Shown here: positions 17,942 to 63,200 of the stretch, in pieces | Numbering within the stretch: the stretch's first letter is position 1 | How the letters are laid out: each line of letters begins with the position of its first letter | NCBI GenBank assembly: GCA_029246415.1 | Contig: JAQWNF010000003.1 | Location: 1-64,000, forward strand | Source: Glaciecola sp. | GTDB taxonomy: Bacteria > Pseudomonadota > Gammaproteobacteria > Enterobacterales > Alteromonadaceae | Reading direction: 5' to 3' | Length of the DNA: 64,000 nucleotides | The notes under the pieces: generated by a model | The model's database searches: none | What the model saw: the letters and a program-made list of their open reading frames with translations, nothing else | What the model was told of the DNA's origin: nothing | Program-made: the position numbers and the translations under genes

Positions 17942-18640
17942 CTAAGGCTTTATCGCAATCTTTAGCACGCCATCGCGTTGGTGCATAAATAAATCATACG
18001 CCTCCACAATGTCATCTAGCACATAGGTATGTGTCACCATTTCGGATAAATCGACGCGTCCTGTCTCAATCACATTCATCAACGACATCTACTTCCGTGT
18101 AGTTAATGGTGATATCTGCGCCTAATTTTTTGGCCATCGCTAAGCGTTCATTGTTGGCATCAACAGCAATAATCAGCGAAGCACCTTTTAATTTTGCACC
18201 TGCGGTGGCACATAATCCAATCGGACCTTGGGCAAATATAGCCACCACATCACCAATTTGAATATTGGCATTTTCAGCACCTTTAAAACCAGTGGACATA
18301 ATATCAGGGCACATCAACACTTGTTCATCCGTTAAGCCATCTGGCACTGGGCATAAATTAGCTTGTGCATTCGGCACTAACACGTATTCAGCTTGTGTGC
18401 CATCAATATGATTACCAAAGCGCCAGCCACCCGTTGCTTTATAGCCATGGCACGAACATTTACCACCAGCATCTAAATAGCCCCCATCTTGTGCGGGTAA
18501 ACCATCCTGACTGGCGTAAGAAGTATAGGATGGGCAAATTGCACCGGCAACAACACGTTGACCCTCGCTATAACCCATTACCGCGCTACCAAGTTTTTCA
18601 ATGGTACCGACAGGTTCATGACCTATGGTTAACCCTTTTT
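17942..18640 (-). pseudogene. Decayed zinc-dependent alcohol dehydrogenase
   Basis: N-terminus missing (starts at LTIGHEPVGTIEKLG with an upstream in-frame stop), middle deleted after KKLGADITINYTEVDVV, C-terminal LMNVIETGRVDLSEMVTHTYVLDDIVEAYDLFMHQRDGVLKIAIKP* in another frame. Confidence 0.88.
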
Positions 18641-18774: not shown

Positions 18775-21015
18775 TTACTGGTAGTAAAATGCACCAGTCC
18801 AATCATAAATCGTGTCAGCAATTTTTAGGCTATGTTTACTTGAAGCTGCCGCATCTTGATTAGCAAGAATAAATAACTGTGTATTGCCTGCTAAATCAGT
18901 AATTTGGATCGCTGTATACTGTGTATCATCGTGCACAATTGCAAGGTTAGCAATATTACTCGATGAGTTTAATGACGCTTCAGTAACAGGACTATAGCTG
19001 CCATGAGGCTCAATTACAGTTGCAAATGTGGTATCAGCAGTGTCATTACGACGGATCATGAAAGCCGCTTCACGACGAATATTAAACTCAGGATCCTTTG
19101 CCCCCATGCGGGTAAACAACAATTCATCGCTAGTATTCGTTGCAGCAGTCAACGTAAAGAATTTGCCTTCAGTTAACCAAGATAATTTAGTGTTATTTGT
19201 TTTAGGTTGACCTTGACCTTCTAAGTATAAATGTTGATAACCGTTTTTCGTACCAAGCGGAGCTAGCGTGTTGGGTGATGCATAGTCAAAATTGGTGTCA
19301 ATGACTTGGCCTAAGAAATAATAAGGTAGGTCATAATCTTGCTTAGCATTCGTGTCCACTTTCATGATGTCGAGTAAGAATGCTTTTTCAAAATTCTCGT
19401 CTTTGATCATGACCATAGTACGATGCATTTTGGTCCCTGGGTATGCATTGGTTTCAGTCGCACTCACTACTTGCACTTCTGGGCGCGAGTCATCATAGAC
19501 ATGTAATTCGGAATGATGCTGACTGCCTACCGCATATTTACCCTGAAAATGCATTTCTTGATTAAGTGATAAAGTATTGTGAGCAATAGTGGTTTTTGCC
19601 CACGTTGTGTTTTCTTTTAGATAGTTACCACCGCCTTTTTGACCAATATTAACAAAACGCGATAATCCGTAATCTTGCAATACTTCAGCGCCTTTTGCAT
19701 ATAATGAAAAAGATAACTTGTCGTAATGACCGTGGCTTAAGCCTTGGGCTGCATATTTAAATACATTGGTAAGTTCTTCGTTACCATAACGTAATACAGC
19801 AACGCCACCCTCATCACCGTTAGCACCATCAGTAAGATTAACCGATGTTTTGGCAAAAGGTTGGGCCTTGTTATCACGCACACCAATAGCGACGGCTAAA
19901 CCCGCTTGGTCGAGTAGCACTTCATTTTGAGTTTGTGCAATGCTTAGTAGCTGTGGATCTTGATTACCATAGTGATATGCAACGTTAACCGCAGTAACTA
20001 ATGACGGCGTAAAATAAGACATGCCTTTTTGACCGTCATTAAGTGGGAAGAACTCTCCATCAGCATCGGTCAAATTCAATAACGCATCTACACCTTTGAG
20101 CAGTACATTGTCTTTATGCTGCATCACGCCTAATTCTGGCTTAGCATTTTCCATTCCCAATGCAAAGATTAAGAACGGGTACATAGCATAACGTTGGTAA
20201 TACGGACCTTCGGTATAGTAACCATCAGGTGAAAAGGGCTCTTCGAGATTAGCTAAAAAGCCGCGACGTTGGCCTTCTGTTTTAATTGTACCGCCGTCAT
20301 TATCAACGCCACCAACTTCTAAGCCATCATCTTCGATGCCATATAATGCGCGTTGGATCAGTTCTTTATCATCCATTACTAGACCAATCATACCTACTGC
20401 GGCATTACCCCAAGTACTATGATTGTGTACGCGGTTGAAAAACGCAGGGTTTTCTAACGAGATAAAATCTGCGAATGGACGAAATAAATTATTCTCTAAA
20501 ACAGAGCGTTCAGAATCAGACAAAAAATTATAGATAGTGTCGTAGGCTTGGCTCATATACACCAGCCAGTTACTGTCATTTAGGCACTGCCAAAATAACT
20601 TACCTCTTGAATAGGAACGTTCTTGGGGATGTAGGGGCAAGTTTTTGTACATTGCTTCGTATTGAAACAACATATCACGCACATAAACGGCATATTTATC
20701 GTCTTGTAAAATTTGATATAACACACCAGCTTGTTGGGCAATGATAAAATTTTGTTTATGACGGTAATGGGTATAACCACCAGAGAAATCTTTAGGGATT
20801 GGCGTATCAATGCCCGCAGCAATTTCTGCATCAACCACTTGTTTAACCTTGACTAAACTAGCGTCAAACAATGGGACTTTACCAAGGTTTTTGCGGATTT
20901 GCTCCACTCCGTCTTGCGTCAAAATAAGATTTGGATGTTCTTTGGCTGACAGCGATGGCACGTTGATTAATATCAACACCATCAGTAATAAACTTTTCAT
21001 CATTCTTATTGGCAT
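18775..21015 (-). CDS. Oligoalginate lyase, PL17 family (heparinase II/III-like C-terminal domain), secreted
   Basis: Signal peptide; PKDFSGGYTHYRHKQNF, LFSPDGYYTEGPYYQRYAMYPF (read as LEEPFSPDGYYTEGPYYQRYAMYPF), NTTWAKTTIAHNTLSLN, GLSHGHYDKLSFSLYA resemble Alg17C-type enzymes. Confidence 0.88.
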   Translation of the reverse strand: MPIRMMKSLLLMVLILINVPSLSAKEHPNLILTQDGVEQIRKNLGKVPLFDASLVKVKQVVDAEIAAGIDTPIPKDFSGGYTHYRHKQNFIIAQQAGVLYQILQDDKYAVYVRDMLFQYEAMYKNLPLHPQERSYSRGKLFWQCLNDSNWLVYMSQAYDTIYNFLSDSERSVLENNLFRPFADFISLENPAFFNRVHNHSTWGNAAVGMIGLVMDDKELIQRALYGIEDDGLEVGGVDNDGGTIKTEGQRRGFLANLEEPFSPDGYYTEGPYYQRYAMYPFLIFALGMENAKPELGVMQHKDNVLLKGVDALLNLTDADGEFFPLNDGQKGMSYFTPSLVTAVNVAYHYGNQDPQLLSIAQTQNEVLLDQAGLAVAIGVRDNKAQPFAKTSVNLTDGANGDEGGVAVLRYGNEELTNVFKYAAQGLSHGHYDKLSFSLYAKGAEVLQDYGLSRFVNIGQKGGGNYLKENTTWAKTTIAHNTLSLNQEMHFQGKYAVGSQHHSELHVYDDSRPEVQVVSATETNAYPGTKMHRTMVMIKDENFEKAFLLDIMKVDTNAKQDYDLPYYFLGQVIDTNFDYASPNTLAPLGTKNGYQHLYLEGQGQPKTNNTKLSWLTEGKFFTLTAATNTSDELLFTRMGAKDPEFNIRREAAFMIRRNDTADTTFATVIEPHGSYSPVTEASLNSSSNIANLAIVHDDTQYTAIQITDLAGNTQLFILANQDAAASSKHSLKIADTIYDWTGAFYYQ

Positions 21016-23543: not shown

Positions 23544-26500
23544 TTAGAACGTGTAGCTAGCACCAAAAGTGATACGACGGTCAGCTAGACCTTGGAAACA
23601 AAGGATTGCGCCTTCGTTAACACAAGACTGAGTTACGCCTTCTTTTGTTAGGTTAACTGCTTCAACACCAACGTTAAGCTGTTCGTTTACATCATAGCTG
23701 AAGCTAGCATTAAGCTGACCACGGTCATGAGTATAAACTGGGAAACCTAAAGTAGAGTTACGTGATGCACCACCAGCTGTATCATCTGTACGGAACGCTT
23801 CACGCCATGTGTAACGAACACGAGCACTGATACCATACTTTTCATAGTATGCAGTTACGTTATAAGCATTTTCAGAGAAGTCTAATAGACCTTGAACCGC
23901 TGATACTTTAACAAAGTCTGCATCGTCATAAATACCATTGATAGCATTGAAGATATCAGTACCACGACCCGCAGATTGGTTAACAACTGAACCACCTTTG
24001 TATTCTTGGATAGTGTAGTTAGCCATGAAACCAAAACCAGATGCCCAGCCAAGGTCTTTTTCAAACGCTGACAAGTCATACTGTACAGCCATCTCAATAC
24101 CCGTTTGAGTAGTGGTTGCTGGATCATTAACTTGTGTGTCTAAATCAGCACAGGCACCAGTTACACCTAGAGGAGCACGGAAATCATCACCTTGAGCAGC
24201 AGGGTTATAAATACCACCAGCGGCACAAGTTGTGTCATTCGTCGCTACGAAACCATTGGCATCTGTAGGCGCTGATTCTAGCGTTGATACAAACAAGTTA
24301 CCGATTTCTTTATCAAAATAACCGATACTTACAACAGCTGCTTCTGCAAAATACCACTCAGCAGATAAATCTAACGTAGTGATTTCTTGTGGCTCTAAAC
24401 CAGGGTTACCAACAGAAACTGATTGGTTGATGTTCGCTGGGAATGATACAGATGTATTCAAATCAGAGAAATTAGGACGACGGATATCTTGTCCATAACC
24501 TAAACGTAGTACAACATCATCATGCGGTGTGTAAACGACATTTAACTTAGGTAATGTAAACGAGTAATCACCAGTTACAGTAGTAAGTGTATTAGTACCA
24601 TCAATATTTGTGTTACCTGTAGAATCTACAGTTGTTTTAATATGACGTACACCAAAGTTACCAACAACGTTTTCAAACTCAAAGTTTGCTTGCGCATATA
24701 ACGCTTGAGTCTCTTCTTCGATGTTGAAGAATGCAGACGCTGATGGAGAAAGATTTAATAAATCTGGTGATGGATCATGTGCAATTAACGCAGCTTCTAA
24801 CGTATCAATTACTTGATCTGGATTACTAAATGCCATATCAGGATTGATGATGATGAAGTTACGTAATGCTAGTTCGCGACCATCCGCATCGCCAAAGTTG
24901 CTTGGACCAGCTACTAACAGGTCAGAGAACAATGAACCGCTTGGACTGTCTTTCAACTTGCTGAAACCACCAATACGGTCAGTGATTTGGTTGTAAGTAC
25001 TTTCACGCTTGCTTACACGGAAACCAAAATCAACAGATGTTACTGGTGAATCTTCTAAGAAGTATGTGAAATCGGCACGGATAGCATCTAATGAGTTATT
25101 AGTTTCGTTTGCGCCTACGTCAACTTGATCAAGAACTACGTTTGCTGGATCCATTAGCTGAGGGATCGTCGGAGCAAACGGTGAGGCAAAGTTGATACCA
25201 AATGTTAATGCACCGCCTGTAAGATCATAAATGAACGGAACAGCGTTGTCATTACTTGTGCTATCAGTTGGGTTGCCATCAGCATCAAGACCATCTAAAG
25301 GTGCATTAGGGTTGATGAAGTTTAACGTTGTGCTTAGGTTTGGATTAGTTGTATCTGAACTCGCTGAAGAGATTTCAACGCTAGCAAACAAGTTATCACC
25401 CTGCCACTCACCACCAAGACGGAAAAGAGATGTGTCAGTTAAACGTGCACCTGTATCAGAACTGAAACGTAGGTTTGGATCATCGTCATCCTTCGCTAGG
25501 TCTGGTTCGATTGTACCGCGAACTGCTGCTTGGATACTACCAAGGTTAACACCGTCTAAAGAACCGTAATTTACTGTTTCAAACTGAGTTGGTAAGTTTT
25601 GATTAAGCACTGAACTTACACCAGAACCTTGTACACGAGTACTGTCTTGACGACGCTCTTGGTCAGTTAAAACAACATCTAAGAAAAACTTAGTGTTATC
25701 AGTTGGGGCAAACTCAAACGTAGTTGAGATGTTAGTTGTTTCATATTCGAAGTTTTCATATTCTTGGTTTAAGAATTGAATACCTAGGAAATCAAAATCT
25801 TGACATACTGGACGAGCAGATACGTCTTCAGTGTTACCACTTCGTACTACAACTGCATCACAGTTTTCTACTAGACTACCGTCGCGGTCAACACGTGGAC
25901 GGAAAGAAGAAGCTTCTTGTTGTGTAACACTACCACTGAAAACAAAACCGAATTTACCAGAATCTGTATCCCAGTTATCACCAAATGCAGCAGACACACG
26001 TGGCATAATACCATCAGTGGTTAAGCTGCTGTCTTCGCCTTGAACACGTACGTTGATTAAACGGTCGTCAAGTTCTAAAGGACGGATTGTACGAAGGTTA
26101 ACAGTACCACCGACAGAACCTTCGATAGTTTTGGCTTCTGACGCTTTAGTTACTTCAACACCGGCAATGATCGATGCAGATACATCTTCAAAGCTAATAC
26201 CGCCACGGCCAGTACCAGCACCAACAGTTTGAACTCCGTTAATTAGTACGTTGTTCGAGTTAGAACCACGAATTTGAACACCCGTACCAACACCAGCTGT
26301 ACGTGTGATTTGAATACCTGTAATGTTTTCTAATACTTCAGCTAAGTTTTGATCAGGTAGTTTACCGATATCTTCAGCTTCAATAATTTCTACTAGGTTA
26401 GTAGATGAACGTTTTTCAGCAAGTGCGTTAGTTAGTGAACTACGAATGCCTGATACTTCGATGACTTCAACATCAGCAGCTGCATCTTGTGCAAGTACTG

Positions 26501-26567
26501 GAGCAGCCATATTTAGTGCTGAAGCAGATAATACTGCTAAAGTAATCTTAGAAAGTTTGTGACTCAT
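23544..26567 (-). CDS. TonB-dependent receptor
   Basis: Signal peptide, plug (EDIGKLPDQNLAEVLENITGIQITR), terminal ITFGASYTF. Confidence 0.93.
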   Translation of the reverse strand: MSHKLSKITLAVLSASALNMAAPVLAQDAAADVEVIEVSGIRSSLTNALAEKRSSTNLVEIIEAEDIGKLPDQNLAEVLENITGIQITRTAGVGTGVQIRGSNSNNVLINGVQTVGAGTGRGGISFEDVSASIIAGVEVTKASEAKTIEGSVGGTVNLRTIRPLELDDRLINVRVQGEDSSLTTDGIMPRVSAAFGDNWDTDSGKFGFVFSGSVTQQEASSFRPRVDRDGSLVENCDAVVVRSGNTEDVSARPVCQDFDFLGIQFLNQEYENFEYETTNISTTFEFAPTDNTKFFLDVVLTDQERRQDSTRVQGSGVSSVLNQNLPTQFETVNYGSLDGVNLGSIQAAVRGTIEPDLAKDDDDPNLRFSSDTGARLTDTSLFRLGGEWQGDNLFASVEISSASSDTTNPNLSTTLNFINPNAPLDGLDADGNPTDSTSNDNAVPFIYDLTGGALTFGINFASPFAPTIPQLMDPANVVLDQVDVGANETNNSLDAIRADFTYFLEDSPVTSVDFGFRVSKRESTYNQITDRIGGFSKLKDSPSGSLFSDLLVAGPSNFGDADGRELALRNFIIINPDMAFSNPDQVIDTLEAALIAHDPSPDLLNLSPSASAFFNIEEETQALYAQANFEFENVVGNFGVRHIKTTVDSTGNTNIDGTNTLTTVTGDYSFTLPKLNVVYTPHDDVVLRLGYGQDIRRPNFSDLNTSVSFPANINQSVSVGNPGLEPQEITTLDLSAEWYFAEAAVVSIGYFDKEIGNLFVSTLESAPTDANGFVATNDTTCAAGGIYNPAAQGDDFRAPLGVTGACADLDTQVNDPATTTQTGIEMAVQYDLSAFEKDLGWASGFGFMANYTIQEYKGGSVVNQSAGRGTDIFNAINGIYDDADFVKVSAVQGLLDFSENAYNVTAYYEKYGISARVRYTWREAFRTDDTAGGASRNSTLGFPVYTHDRGQLNASFSYDVNEQLNVGVEAVNLTKEGVTQSCVNEGAILCFQGLADRRITFGASYTF

Positions 26568-26979: not shown

Positions 26980-26993
26980 TTGGTCGACCAATT
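26980..26993. promoter_or_regulatory. Palindrome ATTGGTCGACCAAT, candidate GntR (UxuR/ExuR-like) operator for the uxuA operon
   Basis: Perfect 14-bp palindrome upstream of uxuA; TTGGTnnACCAA core. Confidence 0.6.
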
Positions 26994-27096: not shown

Positions 27097-28341
27097 ATGC
27101 GCGAATCTTGGAGATGGTTTGGTCCTAACGACCCAGTAACAATCGCTGATATAAGACAAACTGGTGCGACCGATATTGTTAGTGCCCTGCATAATATACC
27201 GACAGGTCAAGCTTGGCCGTTAGCTGCGATTCAAGAGCATCAGGCTTTAATCGAAGATTGCGCTGCCGATTTATCGCCATTGACTTGGAGTGTCGTAGAA
27301 AGTATCCCGGTACATGAAGATATTAAATTAGGTCGCCCAGGTCACCAGCAGTACATAGATAGCTGGATCACTTCAATGGAAAATCTAGCCGAGTGTGGCA
27401 TTAAAACTATTTGTTATAATTTTATGCCTGTTATTGATTGGACGCGAACCGACCTTAATTACAAGCTTCCTAATGGTGCTTATGCGTTACGCTTTGATCA
27501 GCCTAAGTTTGCTGCGTTTGATTTGTTTATTCTGCAACGTGAAAATGCTCAAGCAGAATATAGTGCTGAAGAAATTACAGAAGCCCAAGCGGTATTTGAT
27601 GCAATGGATGATGCCGAACGTACACAGCTGACCAATAATATCATTGCTGGTTTACCAGGCAAAATGACGGATGCCTATGGATTAGATGATTTTCGTCAAA
27701 TGCTAGGCAACTATATAGATATGGATAGTGCCGGTTTACGCAGTAACTTGTTTGCTTTTTTATCTCAAGTGTTACCGCGTGCAGAAGCGTTAGGGATTAA
27801 ATTAGCCATTCACCCTGATGATCCACCTAGAGATATGCTTGGTCTACCTCGGATCATTTGTACTGCAGCGGATTTGGATATTTTATTTGCTGCGTTACCT
27901 AGCCCATCCAACGGTATTACTTTGTGTGTAGGTACTTATAGTAGTCGTCCAGATAACAATTTACCCGAAATGGCAAAGCAATTTGGTCCGCGTATTCATT
28001 TTTCGCATTTACGTGGTGTCAGTCGCGATCCCCAAGAGCAACGTTCCTTTTATGAAGCGAGTCATTTAGATAGCGACATTGATATGATCCAAGTTGTACA
28101 AGAATTATTGTTAGAAGAACAGCGTCGCCGCGTGGATCTCTCTGACGAACAAGGCATCGACGAAATCTTTATTCGTCCAGATCATGGTCATCAAATGATG
28201 GATGATATTGGTAAGACTGTTAACCCTGGCTACTCTGGCATCGGTCGGATGAAAGGCTTGGCTGAAGTACGTGGTGTGATCCGTGCTCTTTCTGCGCAGA
28301 TATCTGCTTCGTCCCAAACGAACAAAGGGAATCCAGCATGA
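27097..28341 (+). CDS. uxuA: D-mannonate dehydratase UxuA
   Basis: MRESWRWFGPNDPVTIADIRQTGATDIVSALHNIPTG...CYNFMPVIDWTRTDL. Confidence 0.95.
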   Translation: MRESWRWFGPNDPVTIADIRQTGATDIVSALHNIPTGQAWPLAAIQEHQALIEDCAADLSPLTWSVVESIPVHEDIKLGRPGHQQYIDSWITSMENLAECGIKTICYNFMPVIDWTRTDLNYKLPNGAYALRFDQPKFAAFDLFILQRENAQAEYSAEEITEAQAVFDAMDDAERTQLTNNIIAGLPGKMTDAYGLDDFRQMLGNYIDMDSAGLRSNLFAFLSQVLPRAEALGIKLAIHPDDPPRDMLGLPRIICTAADLDILFAALPSPSNGITLCVGTYSSRPDNNLPEMAKQFGPRIHFSHLRGVSRDPQEQRSFYEASHLDSDIDMIQVVQELLLEEQRRRVDLSDEQGIDEIFIRPDHGHQMMDDIGKTVNPGYSGIGRMKGLAEVRGVIRALSAQISASSQTNKGNPA

Positions 28342-29420
28342 GTCAAATAATCAAGTTCGGTCCCAACCGTGTGTGGCGCACCTATCAAGGTGGTAAGCAG
28401 TTAGACATTATTGAAGGCAAAGAAGATCCGCAAGACTCTAGCTTTCCAGAAGATTGGATTGGCTCAACGGTTGCGGCTAAAAATATAGGCCGAGAGCACA
28501 TTTCAGAAGGGTTAGCATTGGTCACCGATACGAGTGGGCAAACCGTTCCTTTTAGAGATGTATTACAACAAAATCAATCTTATTACTTAGGTGAAACCGA
28601 TGCTGGTCCAAGTGGTATGGATGATATTCCGTTAGTGAAATATCTCGATAGTGCAACGCGATTACATTTTCAAGCACATCCAACACGTGAGTTTGCACAA
28701 GCACGTTTGGATTCACCACGTGGTAAGACTGAAGCATATGTGATTTTAGAAATTCGTGACGATGTAACCGAGCCCTATATTTATGCAGGTTTTCAGCGTT
28801 CACCTAGTCGTGCGGATTTAAAGGAATGGATCGAAACGCAAAACATCGATGCGATTGAACAGTGCTTTGATAAAATTCCGGTCAAACCTGGCGATGTGTT
28901 CTTACTTCCCGGTGGACGTCCTCATGCATTAGGTGAGGGGATTTTAATGCTAGAAATCATGGAGCCATCTGATCTAGCGGTACGATTTGAATTTGAACGT
29001 TGTGGTTACGTGATCCCTGAGAAAGCCCGTTTTATGGATCGCGGCATTGAAACCGCATTAGATGTGTTTAATTTTGACCCTGTCCCACCGACTCAGATTG
29101 ATTCTGAATTTCGCTGTATACCTACTATTATAAATCAGGATAGTAGCGCGAACACATTAGAGCAACTTATCGGTCCTGATAAAACCTCGTGTTTTACGGT
29201 TAAGCGTGCAAACGTTCAAGGTGAGTATATACGTTGTGAGGACGAGTTTTTCTACGGTGTTGTTACGGCCGGATCAGGCAAGATGCAAATTGGCGATGAA
29301 ACTATTGTGTTGCAACAATGGGAGAGATTTTTCTGTCCTGCAGGGGTAACCGATTTTACCTATGAATCGACTTCGGGAATGACAATCTTAGAATGTTATC
29401 CAGGTAGTGAATTAAAATAA
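28338..29420 (+). CDS. Class I mannose-6-phosphate isomerase-like cupin enzyme
   Basis: LHFQAHPTREFAQ (QxH), GKTEAY, PGDVFLLPGGRPHALGEGILMLEIMEPSD; ATGA overlap with uxuA. Confidence 0.85.
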   Translation: MSQIIKFGPNRVWRTYQGGKQLDIIEGKEDPQDSSFPEDWIGSTVAAKNIGREHISEGLALVTDTSGQTVPFRDVLQQNQSYYLGETDAGPSGMDDIPLVKYLDSATRLHFQAHPTREFAQARLDSPRGKTEAYVILEIRDDVTEPYIYAGFQRSPSRADLKEWIETQNIDAIEQCFDKIPVKPGDVFLLPGGRPHALGEGILMLEIMEPSDLAVRFEFERCGYVIPEKARFMDRGIETALDVFNFDPVPPTQIDSEFRCIPTIINQDSSANTLEQLIGPDKTSCFTVKRANVQGEYIRCEDEFFYGVVTAGSGKMQIGDETIVLQQWERFFCPAGVTDFTYESTSGMTILECYPGSELK

Positions 29421-29465
29421 GCACTATTGACCAGTACTACTGACCAGCACTAGGGGAATAACAAC

Positions 29466-30941
29466 ATGCAACGTCTTAATCAGGCTAGTTTAGCAACACT
29501 TCCGGCGAATATTACAGCGCCTAAATATGCCCCGGTCACGGTTTCATCGGGAATATTACACTTTGGCGTAGGTAACTTTCACCGTGCTCATCAAGCCATG
29601 TACTGTGATGAGCTGCTAAATAAAGGTGAATTAAAGTGGGGCATTACAGGTGTGTCTCTGCGTTCGCCGGATATGCGTGATCATTTGGCAGCGCAAGATT
29701 ATTTGTACACACAAGCGACTTTAGGTGAGCAAACTCAGTATAAAGTCGTTGGCGCGTTGCAACATATATTAGTGGCACCAGAAGATCCGCAAGCGGTGCT
29801 CAGTGAGGTCGCAAACAGTAATATTCAATTAATCACAATGACGATTACCGAAAAAGGCTATGATTTGGCTAATGGCGAACTCAATGGGACAGCATCAGGG
29901 GTCGCGCATGATCTTCTGGATTTGAGCCAACCCAAAACGATTTATGGATATATAGCCGCGGGACTTATTCAACGTTGTACAAAACAAGGCTCGAAATTAA
30001 CCGTATTGTGCTGTGACAATATGCATGCCGGTGGTGAGGTTGTAAAAGCTGGCGTGATGGTACTGTTAAATCAACATAGTCCTGAAACCATCGCTTGGGT
30101 TGATGAGAATGTTGCCTTTGCGTCTTCTATGGTTGACCGCGTAACACCTGCCACCAGTGAGCAGCTCAAGCACGATGTTACGCAAGCATTAGGCTTTGTC
30201 GATGCGGCTCCTGTGGCTGCTGAGCCATTTACACAATGGATTATTGAAGATAATTTTGCCGGTGAGCGTCCGCCCTTTGATCGTGTAGGTGCATTATTCG
30301 TTGATGATATTACTCCGTTTGAAAAAGTGAAATTGCGTTTTTTAAATGCAAGTCATTCTATGCTAGCGGCAATGGGGTATTTAGCGGGTGATCAATTTAT
30401 TCATGAAGCTTTACGCCGTAGTGTACTAGCGCAATTTGCTGAGCAAGCCTTAAAACTCAATATATTACCTGTAACTCATGTGCCACAAGGTATGTCAGGG
30501 GTTACTTATATAGATGAAGTGTTAGCGCGTTTTCGCAATCACCATTTACCGTATGCGGTATTGCAAGTGGGTACCGATAGTTCACAAAAAATTCAACAAC
30601 GTTGGTTTCCTGCTACTGATGATGCATTGCGTGTTGGAAGAGCGAGTGCTTATTTGGCGTTTGCCGTGGCTGCGTGGGCGAGTTTTATACGTAAAGCCCT
30701 CGAAAATAATGACCTCAATGATCCATTGTCTGAAGCATTGGCTCAATCTAGTGAAATAACCAATACAGATACTACGGATTTTGCAACACGCATGCACGGT
30801 TACTTACGTCTAGCGGGTGCTGAAAGTTTTGATTTTTATAGCAATCGAGCGTTCATGGATCGGGTGACTCAATGTCATATCAGTATAGAAGGTTTAGGTG
30901 TTGAACAAGCGCTTAGCGTTGATTTAGCCCTTAGCAAATAA
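29466..30941 (+). CDS. uxuB: Mannitol dehydrogenase family; fructuronate reductase UxuB-like
   Basis: LHFGVGNFHRAHQAMYCDELL, TITEKGYDL, KLRFLNASHSMLAAMGYLAG; adjacent to uxuA. Confidence 0.88.
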   Translation: MQRLNQASLATLPANITAPKYAPVTVSSGILHFGVGNFHRAHQAMYCDELLNKGELKWGITGVSLRSPDMRDHLAAQDYLYTQATLGEQTQYKVVGALQHILVAPEDPQAVLSEVANSNIQLITMTITEKGYDLANGELNGTASGVAHDLLDLSQPKTIYGYIAAGLIQRCTKQGSKLTVLCCDNMHAGGEVVKAGVMVLLNQHSPETIAWVDENVAFASSMVDRVTPATSEQLKHDVTQALGFVDAAPVAAEPFTQWIIEDNFAGERPPFDRVGALFVDDITPFEKVKLRFLNASHSMLAAMGYLAGDQFIHEALRRSVLAQFAEQALKLNILPVTHVPQGMSGVTYIDEVLARFRNHHLPYAVLQVGTDSSQKIQQRWFPATDDALRVGRASAYLAFAVAAWASFIRKALENNDLNDPLSEALAQSSEITNTDTTDFATRMHGYLRLAGAESFDFYSNRAFMDRVTQCHISIEGLGVEQALSVDLALSK

Positions 30942-30957
30942 CAATAAAAAATAACTT

Positions 30958-32250
30958 TTGAGGTCGTCTAACATGGAACAAGTAGCAGCATCATCATTGA
31001 AACAAACATTTGCCAAATGGTTAGCGTTATTTTTGCCAGGTATTTTTTTACTTGGTTTTAATATTGGTACCGGCAGTGTCACTGCGATGGCTAAAGCAGG
31101 TGCAGATTACGGTATGACGTTGTTATGGACGATTGTCGCCTCGTGCTTATGTACTTTTTTCATGATCAACCTGTATGGGCGTTATACGTTAGTGACGGGG
31201 GAAACCGCACTACAAGCATTCCGCAAGCATATTCATCCAAGCGTCGGCATCTTTTTCTTAATTGCGTTAACGACTGGCGTGTGCGGCAGTGTGATGGGTG
31301 TAATGGGAATAGTCGCTGATATTTGTTATGAGTGGTCAAAATCGGCTGTAGAAGGGGGCATTGCGCCGATTTATTTTGCGGCGTTTTTTGTTGCTTTGGT
31401 GTATTACATTTTTTGGAATGGTAAAACAGAGTTTTTTGAACGCAGTTTAGCGGTGGTTGTTGCGATCATGTCTGCATGTTTCTTGGTGAATTTTTTCATT
31501 ATGATGCCGCCGCCTGTGGAAATAATCAAAGGTCTTGTTCCAAGTATCCCTGAAGTTTCTACCAGCACAGGTAAAGGGCCGTTTTTAGTTATTGCGTCAA
31601 TGATCGGTACGACGGTGTTTTCTGGATTATTCATTATCCGTACAACATTGGTAAAAGAAGCCGGTTGGACGTTAGCGGATTATGCTAAGCAACGCAATGA
31701 TGCGATATTTTCGGTGTGTTTGATGTTTATCATCAGCGCGTCGATCATGGCTGCTGCTGCCGGAACCTTACATGTTGAAGGGATTAGTTTGACCAATGCG
31801 TCACAGATGATTGGGATTTTAGAGCCGTTAGCGGGCTCATTGGCGACGGCTATTTTCGCTTTTGGTTTGGTTGCTGCAGGGGTGTCTTCACAGTTTCCAA
31901 ACGTACTGATGCTGCCTTGGTTATTGTGTGATTATAATGACACACAACGTGATATGACCTTAACTAAATACCGTATTATTGTGTTTTTAATCTCCTTGTT
32001 GGGGCTAGTTGTACCTATATTTGATGCACGTCCAGTACTGGTCATGATTATCTCGCAAGCATTCAATGCGGTGATTTTACCGATTACCGTCGCCTGTATT
32101 TTTTATCTAGGTAATCGCAAAGACTTGATGAAGTCTCATACAAACACATGGGTCGCTAATAGCATTTTAGCTGCTATCTTAGTGTTCTCGATCTTTACTT
32201 CTTTCATCGGTGTGAAGGGCGTGTGGCAGTTGATAACAGCGACTTTATAA
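30958..32250 (+). CDS. Nramp-fold (SLC11-like) transporter lacking DPGN and MPH motifs
   Basis: LPGIFLLGFNIGTGSVTAMAKAGADYGMTLLW aligns to Nramp TM1; IGTTVFSGLFIIRTTLVKEAGW aligns to TM6. Confidence 0.8.
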   Translation: MRSSNMEQVAASSLKQTFAKWLALFLPGIFLLGFNIGTGSVTAMAKAGADYGMTLLWTIVASCLCTFFMINLYGRYTLVTGETALQAFRKHIHPSVGIFFLIALTTGVCGSVMGVMGIVADICYEWSKSAVEGGIAPIYFAAFFVALVYYIFWNGKTEFFERSLAVVVAIMSACFLVNFFIMMPPPVEIIKGLVPSIPEVSTSTGKGPFLVIASMIGTTVFSGLFIIRTTLVKEAGWTLADYAKQRNDAIFSVCLMFIISASIMAAAAGTLHVEGISLTNASQMIGILEPLAGSLATAIFAFGLVAAGVSSQFPNVLMLPWLLCDYNDTQRDMTLTKYRIIVFLISLLGLVVPIFDARPVLVMIISQAFNAVILPITVACIFYLGNRKDLMKSHTNTWVANSILAAILVFSIFTSFIGVKGVWQLITATL

Positions 32251-32284: not shown

Positions 32285-32414
32285 ATTTATCAAAAATAGC
32301 CAACCAAATTGGTTGACAACGGTTGGGTTAATTGTTTTAATAATGTTAAATAAATTGTATAGTTTGTGTTTGTGCTTAACGTTTATTTAATTATTATGTT
32401 TTCATAGTGTCTTG

Positions 32415-32440
32415 GCTCCTTTTTTAAGGAGCTTTTTTTT
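32415..32440 (+). terminator. Rho-independent terminator of the uxuA operon
   Basis: GCTCCTT TTTT AAGGAGC TTTTTTTT. Confidence 0.85.
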
Positions 32441-32445
32441 GTCTG

Positions 32446-33294
32446 TTATTTTGTGATCGCATTGACTGTTTTTGTAATATCGATGTGCTGAGTTGATTCG
32501 ATAAACCCAATTGAAAAACGCTGAGGGGTATTGAGGTATTTGTTCTTTTCACTGCGTCCAAAACCTAGGACCGTCATGTAGGGGCGGCTAACATAATTAT
32601 CTGGATGTTGGTCATCTTCATGGTGCAATACATAGAGCATACGCGAACTGTTTGTATCGCCAAAGGCAAACCATTCTGGTGCAGGTAAATCGCCTAAAAA
32701 GGATTCATTAATTGGGTGTGACTTTGAATCGATGGATGCATACCAGAAATCACTTTCATCCATATTACCATTGGGCACGCCTTCAAATTGCACCCAGTAG
32801 TTATATCCAGCACTGACTTGGGTCATAGTAAAATCGAGTCTATCGCGATAAAAGTCATATTGACCGATCCACTTACCATTTGCTGAAGTAACATCAATTC
32901 GAATATGTTGCGGGGTATCAATGACAATATTTGTAGCAGCTAGGTCGGTTTTGGCATTCATTGCATGAAAATAATTGCCATCTTGTCTATGAACGGCATT
33001 AGGAAAACCGCGATATTCACCTTTCCAACCTGAGCCGGGGGTATTATTAAAACCTATCCAATCCACGCCATCAGCATCGAGCATACTCGATAAACCGCCA
33101 CCGGTTTTTTCTAAATAAAATGTCGCATTATCTATCTCAACAATAAACGCAGGTAAATTGCCAGCAGACTCATCGAAACCATCTGTTAGTTGTATACTTC
33201 TTTGAGAACTACAAGAGACTAGACCTAAACTTAAGCAAATCGCTGTGGCTAGTGGCGCTAGTCTGTTAAATGAAGGTTTAGGTGTAAATATCAT
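32446..33294 (-). CDS. Lipoprotein of unknown function in carbohydrate operon
   Basis: Lipobox LVSC at the end of a signal sequence; FYLEKTGGGLSSMLDADGVDWIGF...GEYRGFPN. Confidence 0.65.
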   Translation of the reverse strand: MIFTPKPSFNRLAPLATAICLSLGLVSCSSQRSIQLTDGFDESAGNLPAFIVEIDNATFYLEKTGGGLSSMLDADGVDWIGFNNTPGSGWKGEYRGFPNAVHRQDGNYFHAMNAKTDLAATNIVIDTPQHIRIDVTSANGKWIGQYDFYRDRLDFTMTQVSAGYNYWVQFEGVPNGNMDESDFWYASIDSKSHPINESFLGDLPAPEWFAFGDTNSSRMLYVLHHEDDQHPDNYVSRPYMTVLGFGRSEKNKYLNTPQRFSIGFIESTQHIDITKTVNAITK

Positions 33295-33297
33295 GAT

Positions 33298-35049
33298 TTA
33301 TATAGTCCTTTGGCGAGCACTGCGCTTTAATAATAAACCTATAGTGAGGATAGTCATAGCACAGCCAACAAATACGAGCCTGCCCCATAATGGATTTGGG
33401 ATCAAACACATCAATAATACACCGACGCCCATTATCAGCACCATAGCGCCGAGCTTATCCCGCTGATGACGGTCATAATCGCCTTGTTCAGCATCGGCTA
33501 TAAACGGTGTTTCGACATCGTTAAAGAAGGCTTCACGTTCTACTCGATATTCATCTGTGGCTTCGTTATAAAACAATGTTGTCGAACAGAAAAATCCTGC
33601 TGTAATGACTAAATGCGCTGCAATAGTGATCATTAAGTTGAGATCGATATATTCACGGCGGGTTAATGCTTGATCCAATCCGATGATGTCGGCAAAGACA
33701 TTTGGCGTAAATACATTCATCACAAACCAAGACACAAACAACCCTAATGCAACTGTTACCCATGGTGCCCATTTAGGAGTTTTTTGGATAAACAAGCCAA
33801 AGATCAATGGAATTAAAAGTGGTACTTGGATCATTGTTGACACGCTCATCATCAATTCAAACAAGCTTAACTGTGTGAGTGACTTAAAGAACAACGCCAC
33901 GACGATGACCAAAATACCACTGATAAAACTAATTAAGCGACTGACCTTAAGTAAATGCTTATCATCCACGTATTGTTTGCGTTGGCTTAACCAAGGCTGA
34001 TAGATACTGCGGACAAAAATACCTGCATTTTTGTTGAGTGCCGAATCCATTGAAGACATAGAGGCGGCAAATAAGCCAGCGAGTAATAAGCCTACAGTAC
34101 CTATTGGCATTGCGTTTCGGGTAAATACCAAATACACGGCATCAGCAGCTTTGTTGCCTAACTCTGGATAAGCTGCTGCTGCATCTGGATATAAAATGGC
34201 TGCCGCCCAAGGCGGGATAAACCAAATAATACTGCCTGCCGCCATTAATATCATAGCTAGTAGTGCAGCTTTGCGGGCATTGTCAGAATCTTTGGCATTT
34301 AAAAATCGGAATGAATCATGGATGTTCATGATTGTTATCAGTTGTTTAGCTAAAAAAAACACAAATGTACCAACTAATAATACACCATAGTTCATATCTG
34401 GACCCATCATAAAATCAGAAGGGAACTGAGTGACTAGGGCGACGGGGCCGCCAACTTTTATTAGAGCAACTATGGCACAGGCAATCGAAATGACTGCCAC
34501 AATCAAAGTTTGTACAAAGTCTGATGCGACCACGCCCCATGCACCAGATAACACTGATACGAACAATACCGCGAGACCTGTCGCGATAATTGTGACACTG
34601 ATATCTGCATCGAATACTACGCTGGTAAAGACTCCTAATGCATTAAGCCACACGCCTGCGTTGATAAAACTAAAGACAATTAATGCCCAAGCAAAGAATG
34701 TTTCATTGCTGCGACCAAAGCGGCGTTTAATACCTTCTGTTGGCGTATCGACACGCATTTGCCTAAAACGAGCGGAGAAATATGCCCAGCCACAAAAATA
34801 TGCAAAGGTATTGGCAAAAAAGACTAAACTAATCGAAAAGCCATCAGTGAAAGCTTTACCAGCAGCTCCAGTAAACGTCCAAGCTGAAAATTGTGCCATA
34901 AACGCAGTTGAACCAACCATCCACCACAACATCCGACCGCCGCCACGAAAATAGTCACTGGTCGAGTTTTTCGCCATTTTAGAAAAGGCAAATCCGATTC
35001 CAAGGATCAGTAAAAAGTATCCTACAATGACTATGTATTCATAAAACAT
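33298..35049 (-). CDS. Sodium:solute symporter (SSS) family transporter
   Basis: FRGGGRMLWWMVGSTAFMAQFSAWTFTGAAGKAF; about 13 hydrophobic segments. Confidence 0.9.
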   Translation of the reverse strand: MFYEYIVIVGYFLLILGIGFAFSKMAKNSTSDYFRGGGRMLWWMVGSTAFMAQFSAWTFTGAAGKAFTDGFSISLVFFANTFAYFCGWAYFSARFRQMRVDTPTEGIKRRFGRSNETFFAWALIVFSFINAGVWLNALGVFTSVVFDADISVTIIATGLAVLFVSVLSGAWGVVASDFVQTLIVAVISIACAIVALIKVGGPVALVTQFPSDFMMGPDMNYGVLLVGTFVFFLAKQLITIMNIHDSFRFLNAKDSDNARKAALLAMILMAAGSIIWFIPPWAAAILYPDAAAAYPELGNKAADAVYLVFTRNAMPIGTVGLLLAGLFAASMSSMDSALNKNAGIFVRSIYQPWLSQRKQYVDDKHLLKVSRLISFISGILVIVVALFFKSLTQLSLFELMMSVSTMIQVPLLIPLIFGLFIQKTPKWAPWVTVALGLFVSWFVMNVFTPNVFADIIGLDQALTRREYIDLNLMITIAAHLVITAGFFCSTTLFYNEATDEYRVEREAFFNDVETPFIADAEQGDYDRHQRDKLGAMVLIMGVGVLLMCLIPNPLWGRLVFVGCAMTILTIGLLLKRSARQRTI

Positions 35050-35060
35050 GAAGAACCCTT

Positions 35061-36197
35061 TTATTGCAGATGGCTAACATCAACCCAATTATCATTTTTG
35101 CGGAGCAAGTCTATTAATTGTTGATACTGCGCACCTTCTTTGAAGGTTTGATAAGGTTCGACGGGTTCACCTTGAATATCTTTGACTAATTTATTGATCA
35201 AGTAGCGCCAATTACGTTCTGTATCGCCTTTTACAGTCGGGATCCCTGCTACAATATCATCGGGTAATGCACGCTCAATCCACTCGCCATTTTTATAAGT
35301 GTAAAGCGGACCACTCGCGTAGTGACCTTTAATATAAATTGCTCCTTTACTGCCATAAATCACGACATGGTCTTCGTTGAACCTAGGGTGCAGACCACCG
35401 TGTTTAAATAGCACCGATACAGGTTTAGCCGCAAACGGACTGGCTAATTGTGCTAGTACGGTATACGACCACTCTACATTGGACTCGCCCCATTTTAGTT
35501 CGGGGTCATTGAGATCAGAGGGAATAAAGTCACGACGCGTTTTAAAATTATGCACTCCATCGACAATAGGGGCCTTACCCAGATCATCACGTACTTCGCC
35601 CATAATCGATAGAATTTTTTCGCCAACGATGGAGGTCACAATAGATAATTTATGGGTAAAATTGTTGTTTAAGCGGCCACCGCCATCTTCTTTACGATGT
35701 GACCAACCGAACGGAATATCTCGTTCGAGGTTAAAATGAGAAATGCATTCTACTTCTAACGGCTCACCAATTATCCCTTCACTGACTAAGCGTTTGGCAT
35801 GAATGACATCAGGCATATAGCGAAAACTGGAAGCAAAGGCGGTTTTGACTTGTTTGGCGACGGCTAATTCGTAGAGTGCTTGGGCGCTAGCACCTTCCTC
35901 CGTTAAGGGTTTGTCACTAAATACGTGGCAACCAAATTCAATGGCTTGGCGAATAGGCGTTTCATGTGCGCCGCCTGGAGTGGCGATAGACACCACATCC
36001 GGTTGACAGTCAATTAAGGCTTGTGCCCAATCAGTGCCAGCATAAGGGATCTGCATATCTGCGGCTACTTGTTCCACGACACTTGGCGTGCGGCCAACAA
36101 TACCTACGACTTCGACACCAACATAGCGAAAGGCTTCTGCATGACCTTGTCCAGCAAAGCCGGTACCATGAATTAATACACGTAATTTTTTACTCAT
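35061..36197 (-). CDS. Gfo/Idh/MocA family oxidoreductase
   Basis: Rossmann GTGFAGQGHAEAF, VSIATPGGAHETPI, FSDKPLTEEG (EKP-like). Confidence 0.9.
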   Translation of the reverse strand: MSKKLRVLIHGTGFAGQGHAEAFRYVGVEVVGIVGRTPSVVEQVAADMQIPYAGTDWAQALIDCQPDVVSIATPGGAHETPIRQAIEFGCHVFSDKPLTEEGASAQALYELAVAKQVKTAFASSFRYMPDVIHAKRLVSEGIIGEPLEVECISHFNLERDIPFGWSHRKEDGGGRLNNNFTHKLSIVTSIVGEKILSIMGEVRDDLGKAPIVDGVHNFKTRRDFIPSDLNDPELKWGESNVEWSYTVLAQLASPFAAKPVSVLFKHGGLHPRFNEDHVVIYGSKGAIYIKGHYASGPLYTYKNGEWIERALPDDIVAGIPTVKGDTERNWRYLINKLVKDIQGEPVEPYQTFKEGAQYQQLIDLLRKNDNWVDVSHLQ

Positions 36198-36234
36198 AAT
36201 GGTTTTTCCAATATTAATTTAATGACGCTGGTGG

Positions 36235-37452
36235 TTACCAGTTCCATAAAGTGCCGTCTTCTAATCGACTGACAGGTAAATAAGAGCGTTTGTAAGGATA
36301 TTGTTGTGCTGCCGTTTCATCAAAGTCTACGCCTAATCCAGGAGCTTCACTCACATATGCCATGCCGTCACTCACGGTGACAGTAGAGGTAAATATTTGT
36401 TTTACTTGTTCATTACCCAATCCAACAAACTCTTGAATACCAAAATTAGGCGCCCAAGTATTGAGGTGCATATGAGCGGCAAAACAAATCGGTGACAGAT
36501 CGGGCGCACCATGGGGCGCGGTTTTAACATTATAAATATTGGCAAAATCACCTATTCTGCGTAATGCGGTAATGCCACCTGCATGGGTCGCTGCGACACG
36601 AATGTAATCAATCAGTTGATTTTGGATCAGGTCTTTACAATCCCAGATGGTGTTATACGTTTCGCCAATCGCTAATGGGGTCGTCGTGTGTTGGCGAATG
36701 ATCTTGTAGCTATCTTGATTTTCGGCGATGGATGCATCTTCTAAAAATAGTAAATCATAGGGTTCGAGCAATTTACCTAAACGTGCTGATTCGATGGGAG
36801 TTAAGCGACTATGCACATCATGTAATAAGTGGATGTCGTTACCAAAGCGCTCGCGTGCTTGCTTAAACAGCTCAACGACAAGATTAAAATATTTCTTAGT
36901 TGACCATTGTTCTTCTGGTGGAAGCGGGCGGTTACCTTGTAATTCGTAGTAGTCTTTTTTATCGCCTAACACGCCATACGTGACAGGTAGACCTGGGATG
37001 GCAGATTGCAACCGGATTGCTTTATAGCCTTGATCTATAAGCTGTGCGGCTTTATCTAACGTATCTGCAATATTTTCGCCACTAGCATGAGCATACAAGG
37101 TCACGCCTTGACGACTTTTACCACCCAGTAATTGGTAAACCGGTAAGCCAGCAGCTTTCCCTTTGATATCCCACAACGCCATATCGATTGCGGCGATGGC
37201 AGCGAGGTTAACCGCCCCTTTGCGCCAGTACACGCCTTTGTATAAATACTGCCAAATGTCTTCGATGGCATGCGCATCACGACCGATTAAACAAGGTGCG
37301 ACATGTTCTTCTAAATAGGTCACTACGGCCATTTCACGACCATTTAATGTGGCATCACCGATGCCATAAATACCCGCATCGGTATGGATTTTTACGGTGA
37401 CAAAGTTTCTGCCTGGGCTACAGACAAACACCTTAATGGCTGTGATTTTCAA
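36235..37452 (-). CDS. Enolase-superfamily D-mannonate dehydratase (ManD/RspA-like)
   Basis: [83 protein letters not shown]. Confidence 0.9.
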
Positions 37453-37539
37453 CGTGAGGCCTCTTTATAATGATTCAATAGTGCGGGAATAGTTTGCAAA
37501 TAGTGCTGCAATAACGCGAAAATGCGGATTAAACAACTT

Positions 37540-37555
37540 ACTAAACCGGTTTAGT
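37540..37555. promoter_or_regulatory. 16-bp perfect palindrome ACTAAACCGGTTTAGT, candidate LacI-family operator
   Basis: In the divergent intergenic between ManD and the LacI regulator; CG-centred. Confidence 0.85.
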
Positions 37556-37624
37556 TGATAAATTTAGCATAATGTAGGATTATGTCAACATCGTAATGTT
37601 TACACTCCAACAGACTCTTTCTTA

Positions 37625-38635
37625 ATGGCAAAAGTAAAATTAATTGACGTGGCTCAATTAGCCGGTGTGTCGAAAAGCACTGTATCCCAATACTTGAATG
37701 GACGGTTTGAATACATGTCCAAAGAGACGCAAGCGCGTGTGCGAGCCGCGGTTGATCAACTGGATTTTGTACCGAATCCGATTGCCCGTAACCTCAAAGC
37801 GACCAAGACGAAAACTATTGGTGTGATAGTGCGTGATATTAGTGGTTTTTATACGAGTAAAGCCATTCGTGGTATTGATGATTATTGTAAAGCGCACGGC
37901 TATCATGCTGTGATTTACAATACGGATTTTGCCTCAGAGACTGAAGCGACCGCATTAACAGCGTTGTATCAGTTACGAGTCGATGGGATCATCATTGCCT
38001 CTTCAGGTAACAATCCTGCACTCATCGAACAATACATCCAAAAAGGTATGCCGATTGTGCAGTTTCAGTTAGAGCATGATGGCACTGAAAAAAACATCAT
38101 TATCTCTGATTACCAACAAGCTGCGTATGCTGCGACGGAATATTTGATTGAATTAGGGCACCGCAGGATTGGGTTTGTCACCCAAGATTTTAAACACGTG
38201 AAATCCAGAAATGAGCGCTATCAAGGTTATGTGGCGGCATTACACAAACATGGCATTGAGCAAGATCCTGCATTGATACAATATTGGGATCGGGAAACTG
38301 GCTTTGCGCACAGCATCCATCATATCTTACAACAAGGTGCGCCTAGTGTTTTGTTTACTCAGCATTTAGCTATTACTACTGAGCTGTTGACCGAACTTAA
38401 TGCAGCTGGAATTGTTATACCGCAAGACGTGTCATTATTGGGGTTTGATGAGATCCCTATGGCTGAGTTCTTCAAAGTTCCGATTACTGTGGTGCAACAA
38501 GAACCTTATCAAATTGGTCAAGAAGCCGCTAAATTACTTTTTAGTCTTGTCGATAAGCCAACCCAAGCAGCGCAACGCATTATGGTTGATTGCACCATGG
38601 TTAAGCGCGATTCTTGTCAAAAAATCACAGGTTAA
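37625..38635 (+). CDS. LacI-family transcriptional regulator
   Basis: VKLIDVAQLAGVSKSTVSQYLNGRFEYMSKETQARVRAAVDQLDFVPNPIARNLK. Confidence 0.95.
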   Translation: MAKVKLIDVAQLAGVSKSTVSQYLNGRFEYMSKETQARVRAAVDQLDFVPNPIARNLKATKTKTIGVIVRDISGFYTSKAIRGIDDYCKAHGYHAVIYNTDFASETEATALTALYQLRVDGIIIASSGNNPALIEQYIQKGMPIVQFQLEHDGTEKNIIISDYQQAAYAATEYLIELGHRRIGFVTQDFKHVKSRNERYQGYVAALHKHGIEQDPALIQYWDRETGFAHSIHHILQQGAPSVLFTQHLAITTELLTELNAAGIVIPQDVSLLGFDEIPMAEFFKVPITVVQQEPYQIGQEAAKLLFSLVDKPTQAAQRIMVDCTMVKRDSCQKITG

Positions 38636-60296: not shown

Positions 60297-63200
60297 ATGA
60301 AAAACAAAATGACAAAATTCACCAAATTAGGTGCAGTACTGTCTGTACTGACGTTAACTGCCTGTGGCGGTGGAACGGAAACTAAGACTGATCTAAACGC
60401 AGTTAATCCTACAGCACCCGTTGATGATTGGCGATTGGTGTGGAGTGACGAATTTGATGGTAACGCTATAAATACAGACAATTGGTCGCATGAAGTCAAT
60501 TGTAATGGTGGCGGCAACCAAGAAAGGCAATGTTATACCGATACTACAGATAACTCATTTGTTAGTGGTGGCATGTTAAAAATTGTCGCAAAAACAGCAG
60601 AGGAAGGTGCAAGCCAACCTTACACCTCTGCGCGAATGACAACTCAAAACAAAATGGATTTTCAATACGGTCGTGTTGAAATGCGTGCTAAATTACCAAA
60701 AGGACAAGGCGCATGGCCTGCTTTTTGGATGATGCCAACTGATTCTGTTTATGGTGGCTGGCCTAAGTCGGGTGAAATCGACATTATGGAAGCCGTTAAT
60801 TTAGGTACGCAGCGTGCTGATGGTACTGAAGAAAAAAATATTTACGGAACCATTCATTATGGTGCCGGCCCGGGTAGTGACTTCTCAGGAAGTTCTCACT
60901 CTCCGTCCACTAATCCAGGTGATTCTTTTAATACCTATGCAATAGAGTGGCAAGAAGGCGAAATTCGTTGGTATTTCAACAATGAGCTATACGCAACCCA
61001 ACGCCAATCAAAGCTTCGTACAACGGGTGATGGAACCATATTGGGACTAAGTCATCGTGGTTGGTATGCTGAATTATACGATGTGGCGACTGGCCAATTA
61101 GGTACTGATTATTCTCCAGCTCCATTTGATCAAGACTTCTTTATGATCTTAAATGTCGCAGTCGGTGGACAGTGGCCTGAAGGTGTAAATGAAGGGGGAG
61201 TAGACGCTGCAGCTTTTGCTGATGGTCAAACTTTAGAAGTTGATTACGTACGCGTATATAAATGTTCAGCAGATCCTGACACTGGACGCGGATGCGAGAC
61301 AGTCGCTCCAGGCTATGATATAGACAAAGCTGATGGCGGGATGTTAGTGGAAGGTCGCGCTCCTGCGCCAACACTAGTTGCCGGTGCGCCAAATCCAATT
61401 ACTATTTTTGATGATGAAATCAATATTAACTGGGTTGCTTGGGATTGCTGTGGAGGTTCTACACCTGGCTTAGTTGCTGACGACGCTGAACGCGGAAATG
61501 TTTATGAATTTGCAGTGCAAAACGGTAACGATGGAACAGTATTTGGTGTCATCACTCGTTCAGCTTTTTTATCTGCAGATCCAACTTCTCCTTCAAGAGC
61601 AACGCCACATAATGCCTTAGGTATGATTGATGGCGGCTACGTTACATTCGATTTAAAAGTAGTGAATGCTCCAACTAATCCAGATTCTGTATGGAAATTT
61701 AAGATTGAAGCAGATGAAGCAGCCGGTGGTGCTTGGGAAGCTGATCTAACAACATTTGGCGACGCGCCAGTAGTCGGGCAATGGTCAACATACCGTATAC
61801 CATTACAAGATGTTGCAGATAATGGTGTAGATATTTCGTTAATCGATGTACTTATGGTATTTCCAGCATGGGCGACCGGAGCTGATGCAGTATTTCGCTT
61901 AGACAATATCGCTATATTACAAGATACCGTTGGTGTGTCTTATCCTGAATTCCCTGTCTCAACTAACACAGATTGGGCATTGTGGGATTGTTGTGGTGGT
62001 TCAACACCTGCAGTAGTAGCAGATGCAGAAAAAGGCCAAGTGGCTGAATTTGCAGTGTTAAATGGTAGCTCAGGTACCGTGCTAGGTTATAACACTCGTA
62101 GTGACAGTGGCGGTAATGATGCACCTTTAAACGTAACTGAAATTGCTGCTAACGGCGTATTATCTTTCGATTTGAAAGTCATAAATGCTCCGGCTGCGGG
62201 CAATGAAGCTTGGATGTTGAAGGTTGAGTCTGCTGGTGCAACTGGTGCAACAGAAGTGAACTTAAATACAAGCTCAGAAGGTGTAAATCCATCTGATGCA
62301 TGGCAAACATTTACCTTTCCAATTTCAGAATTGATGGACGCAGGATCTATCGATCCAAGTGCGTTAGATGTCATTATGATATTCCCTGCATGGGGTTCGG
62401 GTGCAGACGCGGTATTCCGTGTATCTGATGTTAAGTTCCATGTTCCTGGATCTGGTTCGGCTGCGCCGATAGCACCACTTGCAACATTTATTGATGCAGG
62501 TTCTGTTAATGAAAACTGGGCATTGTGGGATTGTTGTGGTGGTTCTACACCTGCATTTGTTGATGATGCGACAAATGGTTCAGTTGCTGAATTTGCTGTT
62601 TTAAATGGTAGCTCAGGTACTGTACTGGGTTTAAATTCACGTACTACTGACGGTGGTTCAGGTGTATCGGTTGATGCATCTAGTCTATTATCTACTGGTG
62701 TGTTCCGTTTTGACCTAAAAGTAATAAATGCTCCAGCGGCAGGTAATGAAGCTTGGATGTTAAAAATTGAATCAGCGGGCGCTACAGGAGCCGTTGAAAT
62801 TAATTTGAATACTAGCAATGAAGGGGTTAACCCTTCTGCAGAATGGCAAACATTTACCTTTAGTTTGTTAGAACTTTTAGACGCTGGGACATTAGATCCA
62901 AGTGATATTGATGTCATTATGATATTCCCAGCATGGGGCTCAGGTGCTGATGCGGTTTTCCGTGTTGACAACATGGAAATTATTGATGGTTCAGCATCTA
63001 GTGCACCTTCTACACCTGTAACTCCGCCAACGGAACCAACGGAACCAACAGAACCAACGGAACCAACTGAACCGACTACACCAGAAGGTCCAAGCGATAC
63101 AGCAACGTTAGCACCATTGTTTACAGATAGTGCACGCACAGGTTGGATTGTATGGGATTGTTGTGGTGGATCAACACCAGCACTAGTTGCAGATGATGCA

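Follow-up and report, generated by a model that had tools for sequence, protein, structure and literature searches.

A candidate D-mannuronate isomerase related to class I mannose-6-phosphate isomerases in an alginate-associated uxuA–uxuB operon of Glaciecola

D-Mannuronate is one of the two monomers of alginate; it differs from mannose-6-phosphate only at C6, and is likewise anionic. Mannose-6-phosphate isomerases (PMIs) turn aldoses of the manno configuration into the corresponding ketoses. D-Mannuronate is itself manno-configured at C2, and its isomerisation yields D-fructuronate, on which UxuB acts. In textbook accounts, alginate breakdown is described for the unsaturated monomer DEH alone. 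From fructuronate, the general pathway runs through UxuB and then UxuA to KDG (PMC6353982). In the alginolytic systems of Alteromonas, an Nramp gene is drawn as a metal-ion transporter (PMC6431674). Our literature search found neither a report of a mannuronate isomerase nor a gene through which saturated D-mannuronate would enter KDG metabolism by isomerisation. A candidate for such a gene is found in the window analysed here, a stretch of 64,000 nucleotides from Glaciecola sp. (contig JAQWNF010000003.1).

The uxuA–uxuB operon and its surroundings

Four genes, in the order uxuA, PMI-like, uxuB and Nramp-like, occupy positions 27097–32250, all on the + strand. The first (27097–28341) encodes a D-mannonate dehydratase that scores 484.9 bits with TIGR00695, against a cut-off of 199.55, and is 52% identical to E. 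coli UxuA. The second (28338–29420) encodes a cupin isomerase of 360 aa, proposed here to act on D-mannuronate. Its ATG start overlaps the uxuA stop by 4 nt as ATGA, as the initial annotation had observed, and the same overlap is seen in three related loci (L020, L022 and L029).

The third gene (29466–30941) is uxuB-like; its product is of the mannitol dehydrogenase family (PF01232 and PF08125), shares 34% identity with E. coli UxuB and is a proposed fructuronate reductase. Its best NCBIfam model is indeed fructuronate reductase, at a score below the cut-off, and a D-arabinitol 4-dehydrogenase model scores almost the same. Since the protein fits two dehydrogenase models almost equally, its substrate is taken from its operon partners. 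The best PDB match is 1lj8, a mannitol dehydrogenase. Because of this match, and because brown algae hold mannitol, we considered a mannitol route, in which the UxuB-like protein would be a mannitol dehydrogenase working with a fructose/mannose isomerase; it was set aside, since the coupled UxuA needs mannonate.

The fourth gene (30958–32250, with the ATG at 30973 being the more likely start) encodes a protein of the Nramp family (PF01566), which NCBIfam would name a divalent metal transporter, the score of 67.8 exceeding the cut-off of 50. Aligned with E. coli MntH, the protein of the window and every relative included carry GTGS instead of DPGN and have no MPH motif, as is also seen against 10ky. 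Judged by these motifs, the protein is not expected to bind metal in the manner so far known. The Nramp-like gene adjoins the isomerase gene in most relatives and is its most constant neighbour, so that uronate import is a natural guess; the protein is probably a uronate importer, possibly a sugar-acid carrier with an Nramp fold. A terminator-like stem is found at 32414–32433, where such stems are only slightly above chance level.

Divergent from the operon, on the − strand, lies a gene for a TonB-dependent receptor (23544–26567), whose sequence suggests a probable role in oligo-alginate uptake and whose homologues are likewise divergent in most of the gammaproteobacterial relatives. Also on the − strand, a PL17 alginate lyase of the oligoalginate lyase type (18775–21015) gives 1167 bits to PDB 7bjt, ‘Alginate lyase, family PL17’. 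The anatomy of the operon is ordinary; what is probably new is an enzyme activity within known pathway logic.

Other features of the window deserve mention. A second mannonate cluster (32446–38635) comprises genes for ManD (36235–37452), a Gfo/Idh oxidoreductase, an SSS transporter, a LacI regulator and a protein of 282 aa to which neither Pfam nor NCBIfam gave a match. A zinc-alcohol-dehydrogenase-like ORF of 170 aa (18066–18578) has about half the usual length and is probably a truncated gene. A long GTG-start ORF on the − strand (62087–63139), with GSVGSVG repeats, is possibly no more than the antisense image of a repetitive gene on the opposite strand.

A probable isomerase of the PMI type

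The initial annotation had assigned the product of the second gene to the class I PMI family, with the QxH, E and H ligand positions retained. The ligands hold, as described below, but plain membership does not: the protein falls below the cut-offs of TIGR00218 (60.1 against 116.2 bits), NF011710 (19.4 against 571) and PF21621 (24.4 against 27), and a Pfam profile search gave no match to PF20511. On these Pfam and NCBIfam scores, it is a divergent relative of class I PMI rather than a plain family member.

An AlphaFold model was built from 44 relatives, with a mean pLDDT of 86.6 and poor loops at residues 127–129 and 209–214. When this model was compared with the PDB by Foldseek, the first 17 matches were all PMIs, the best and nearest solved structure being 1qwr (E = 4e-17). 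In an alignment to E. coli ManA, to which the protein is 25% identical, the metal and catalytic positions match one to one. The metal ligands Q112, H114, E132 and H196 correspond to Q97, H99, E134 and H255 of PMI (Salmonella/E. coli numbering), and the catalytic residues K101, K130, E206, D212 and R216 to K86, K132, E264, D270 and R274; all are invariant in the 44 relatives. Ser95 of ManA, in contrast, is replaced by His110, and histidine occupies this position in 44 of 44 relatives. The equivalent serine of the Candida PMI presumably lines the phosphate site. Given that the fold and the catalytic and metal residues are kept while Ser95 has become His110, the protein looks, on sequence and model, like a competent PMI-type isomerase whose anion pocket is probably changed with respect to PMI.

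Is it, then, an ordinary mannose-6-phosphate isomerase that sits in this operon by chance? All the catalytic residues of PMI are kept, and a genome-wide search turned up no further PMI of type I in Glaciecola. Against an ordinary PMI speak the presence of a type II MannoseP_isomer protein in the genome, the scores under the PMI cut-offs, the invariant His110 and a linkage to uronate and alginate genes that extends over many genomes. The plain ManA reading is disfavoured by the cut-offs and the context, and we think it quite improbable.

Association with alginate and relation to UxaC

The distribution of the gene was followed in 26 distinct gammaproteobacterial genomes with orthologues of about 65% identity or more, and in an order sample of 248 genomes, 10 with the gene and 238 without. 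Alginate lyases of family PL7 occur in 26/26 of the ortholog genomes, as against 43/248 in the order, and the association of PL7 with the gene within the order sample has p = 6e-7, a statistic that ignores relatedness. Among others, Paraglaciecola, Pseudocolwellia and Marisediminitalea have PL7, PL6 or PL17 lyases adjoining the gene. PL17 homologues are next to the operon in six loci (L020, L023, L026, L028, L035 and L038), and in L035 a PL17-type gene is placed between the PMI-like gene and uxuB. In a more distant group, at about 50% identity (L004 and L005), PL7 is directly adjacent.

UxuA and UxuB accompany the isomerase in most loci. Neither uxuA nor uxuB is found alongside the orthologue in L023, L024, L026, L028, L038, L045 and L046. 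Of the 26 ortholog genomes, 25 encode UxuA or ManD as a mannonate dehydratase; UxuA is missing from four, three of which have ManD and one of which does not.

A Paraglaciecola alginate cluster beside the operon (L021, 9212–17037) has a second Nramp-like gene, an RbsD/FucU mutarotase, an SDR and a small GntK-like kinase between its PL7 and PL6 genes, and has the look of a parallel branch serving a different alginate monomer.

The palindrome TTGGTCGACCAA (26980–26991), 117 bp upstream of uxuA, is a candidate operator of the ExuR/UxuR type; the E. coli operator of ExuR/UxuR is of the form TTGGT-N2-ACCAA. Exact TTGGTNNACCAA sites are present in the gap between receptor and operon in 8 of 27 gammaproteobacterial loci (L020, L021, L022, L027, L029, L034, L045 and L046), and, among L020–L054, only in the gaps of these eight. 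They also occur upstream of the isomerase gene in L004, L005, L007 and L008, in the last case between the gene and a GntR/FCD regulator. The Glaciecola genome has seven such sites, four inside unrelated ORFs and three intergenic. These three are at the operon described here, at a locus of SDR (DehR-type), GntR, PL6, MFS, KdgK and Eda genes, and at a second PL6 gene. For the GntR of that locus, the ExuR and UxuR models give the highest scores, which stay under the respective cut-offs. Genome-wide counts of TTGGTNNACCAA show no enrichment over a reversed control, and so the operator argument rests on the position of the sites. We regard TTGGTNNACCAA as a candidate operator common to the PMI-like operon and the alginate loci, to which a regulator would bind.

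The initial annotation had noted uxuA and uxuB but no uxaC in the operon, and had proposed that the isomerase could act on a uronate (or a free sugar) as a candidate replacement for UxaC. The first point extends to the whole genome: a PF02614 search of the assembly (2.96 Mb, 99% complete) found no UxaC; an intact uxaC elsewhere, together with high activity on mannose-6-phosphate only, was what that annotation had named as evidence against its proposal. PF02614 likewise has no match in the PMI-like protein itself. UxaC is also absent from 16 of the 26 ortholog genomes, and UxuA and UxuB are the enzymes that would follow, as would suit a functional replacement that converts D-glucuronate to D-fructuronate. 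In the other 10 of the 26, however, both genes occur together, which rules out strict replacement of UxaC as a general rule. Across the order there is no sign of displacement, UxaC being found in 4/10 genomes with the gene and in 71/238 without it (p = 0.50). Moreover, PMI works on the manno, not the gluco, epimer, and alginate is a polymer without glucuronate. The gene tracks alginate rather than UxaC status. Given the co-occurrence, the lack of an order-wide association, and the alginate neighbourhood, lyases and candidate operator, the enzyme probably does not take the place of UxaC on glucuronate, a role that we consider unlikely, while the proposed role as a uronate isomerase is supported.

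Outside the gammaproteobacterial set, orthologues of 58–66% identity in Opitutales (L043 and L047–L054) are followed by a 2-hydroxyacid dehydrogenase, not by UxuA and UxuB, and often also by a DUF2264 protein with relatives among glucuronate dehydratases of solved structure; heparinase-type lyases are nearby. Here the uronate theme persists in the absence of UxuA/UxuB, and a substrate of the DEH type is conceivable. A KduI-like enzyme would convert DEH to 2,5-diketo-3-deoxygluconate, which the UxuB-like protein would reduce to KDG. The C1/C2 isomerisation chemistry is the same, alginate DEH is manno-configured at C2, and the link to alginate lyases is tight. Such an activity would also suit the Opitutales partners and those genomes in which the transporter is the sole neighbour, with no uxuA or uxuB. 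Against it, the coupled UxuA would be left without a role, and a DehR-type SDR is already encoded in the alginate locus of the Glaciecola genome; we judge a DEH isomerase to be rather improbable.

A proposed route for saturated mannuronate and its relation to known systems

Since PMI acts on manno sugars and isomerisation of mannuronate gives fructuronate, D-mannuronate suggests itself as the substrate, and the neighbourhood, the co-occurrence with lyases and the common candidate operator point to alginate and hence to the same sugar. We infer, with moderate confidence, that the gene product is a D-mannuronate isomerase, metal-dependent and descended from class I PMI, which feeds UxuB and UxuA to form KDG. 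The enzyme would interconvert D-mannuronate and D-fructuronate via a cis-enediol, as PMI does with mannose-6-phosphate and fructose-6-phosphate, with a carboxylate instead of a phosphate at C6. UxuB would then reduce fructuronate to mannonate, and UxuA would dehydrate mannonate to KDG. This KDG would join that made by DehR from the unsaturated alginate units, and the pool would pass to KdgK and Eda, encoded in the locus that shares TTGGTNNACCAA. Such a route would salvage saturated mannuronate set free from alginate, presumably from the non-reducing chain ends in exolytic degradation, in which case the flux may be modest. Alongside the substrate, we infer the direction of the reaction, the specificity of the reductase, the cargo of the transporter and the binding of a regulator to the site.

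The translational coupling of the gene to a genuine UxuA supports mannuronate as the substrate. What counts against it is that genomes lacking UxuA keep the gene, that some loci have neither uxuA nor uxuB and that Opitutales use other partners. By family score, too, the UxuB-like protein is not clearly a fructuronate reductase, with 1lj8 as its best match, and little saturated mannuronate is set free by lyases. More tentatively, the whole may form a dedicated module for alginate-monomer salvage, in which the PMI-derived D-mannuronate isomerase and an Nramp-fold uronate carrier that has lost its metal site would act with UxuB and UxuA (or ManD) to yield KDG. If the mannuronate reading is true, it adds an enzyme activity to marine alginate catabolism and explains the presence of uxuA and uxuB in genomes without uxaC. 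In that case, genes of alginate clusters are probably misnamed where they carry the label ‘mannose-6-phosphate isomerase’ or ‘Nramp metal transporter’.

How does the proposed enzyme compare with known systems? KduI, the 5-keto-4-deoxyuronate isomerase, is also a cupin-fold aldose-ketose isomerase of uronate catabolism, but the PMI-like protein has no KduI family match in Pfam or NCBIfam and a different expected substrate. With UxaC (PF02614), it shares the proposed product, D-fructuronate, which feeds UxuB and UxuA; UxaC, however, is of an unrelated, amidohydrolase-type family and often co-occurs with the PMI-like gene. The alginolytic systems AS1 and AS2 of Alteromonas hold alginate lyases, a TonB receptor, DehR and the Nramp gene in the same clusters, and their account, unlike our proposal, mentions no isomerase, mannonate or fructuronate step (PMC6431674). 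Finally, the class I PMIs (B. subtilis 1qwr, Salmonella 3h1y and E. coli ManA) have in common with the Glaciecola protein the fold, the Q/H/E/H metal ligands and the catalytic Lys and Arg positions, from which it is set apart by its low identity to ManA, its scores below the family cut-offs, His110 in place of Ser95 and its place in an alginate/uronate operon.
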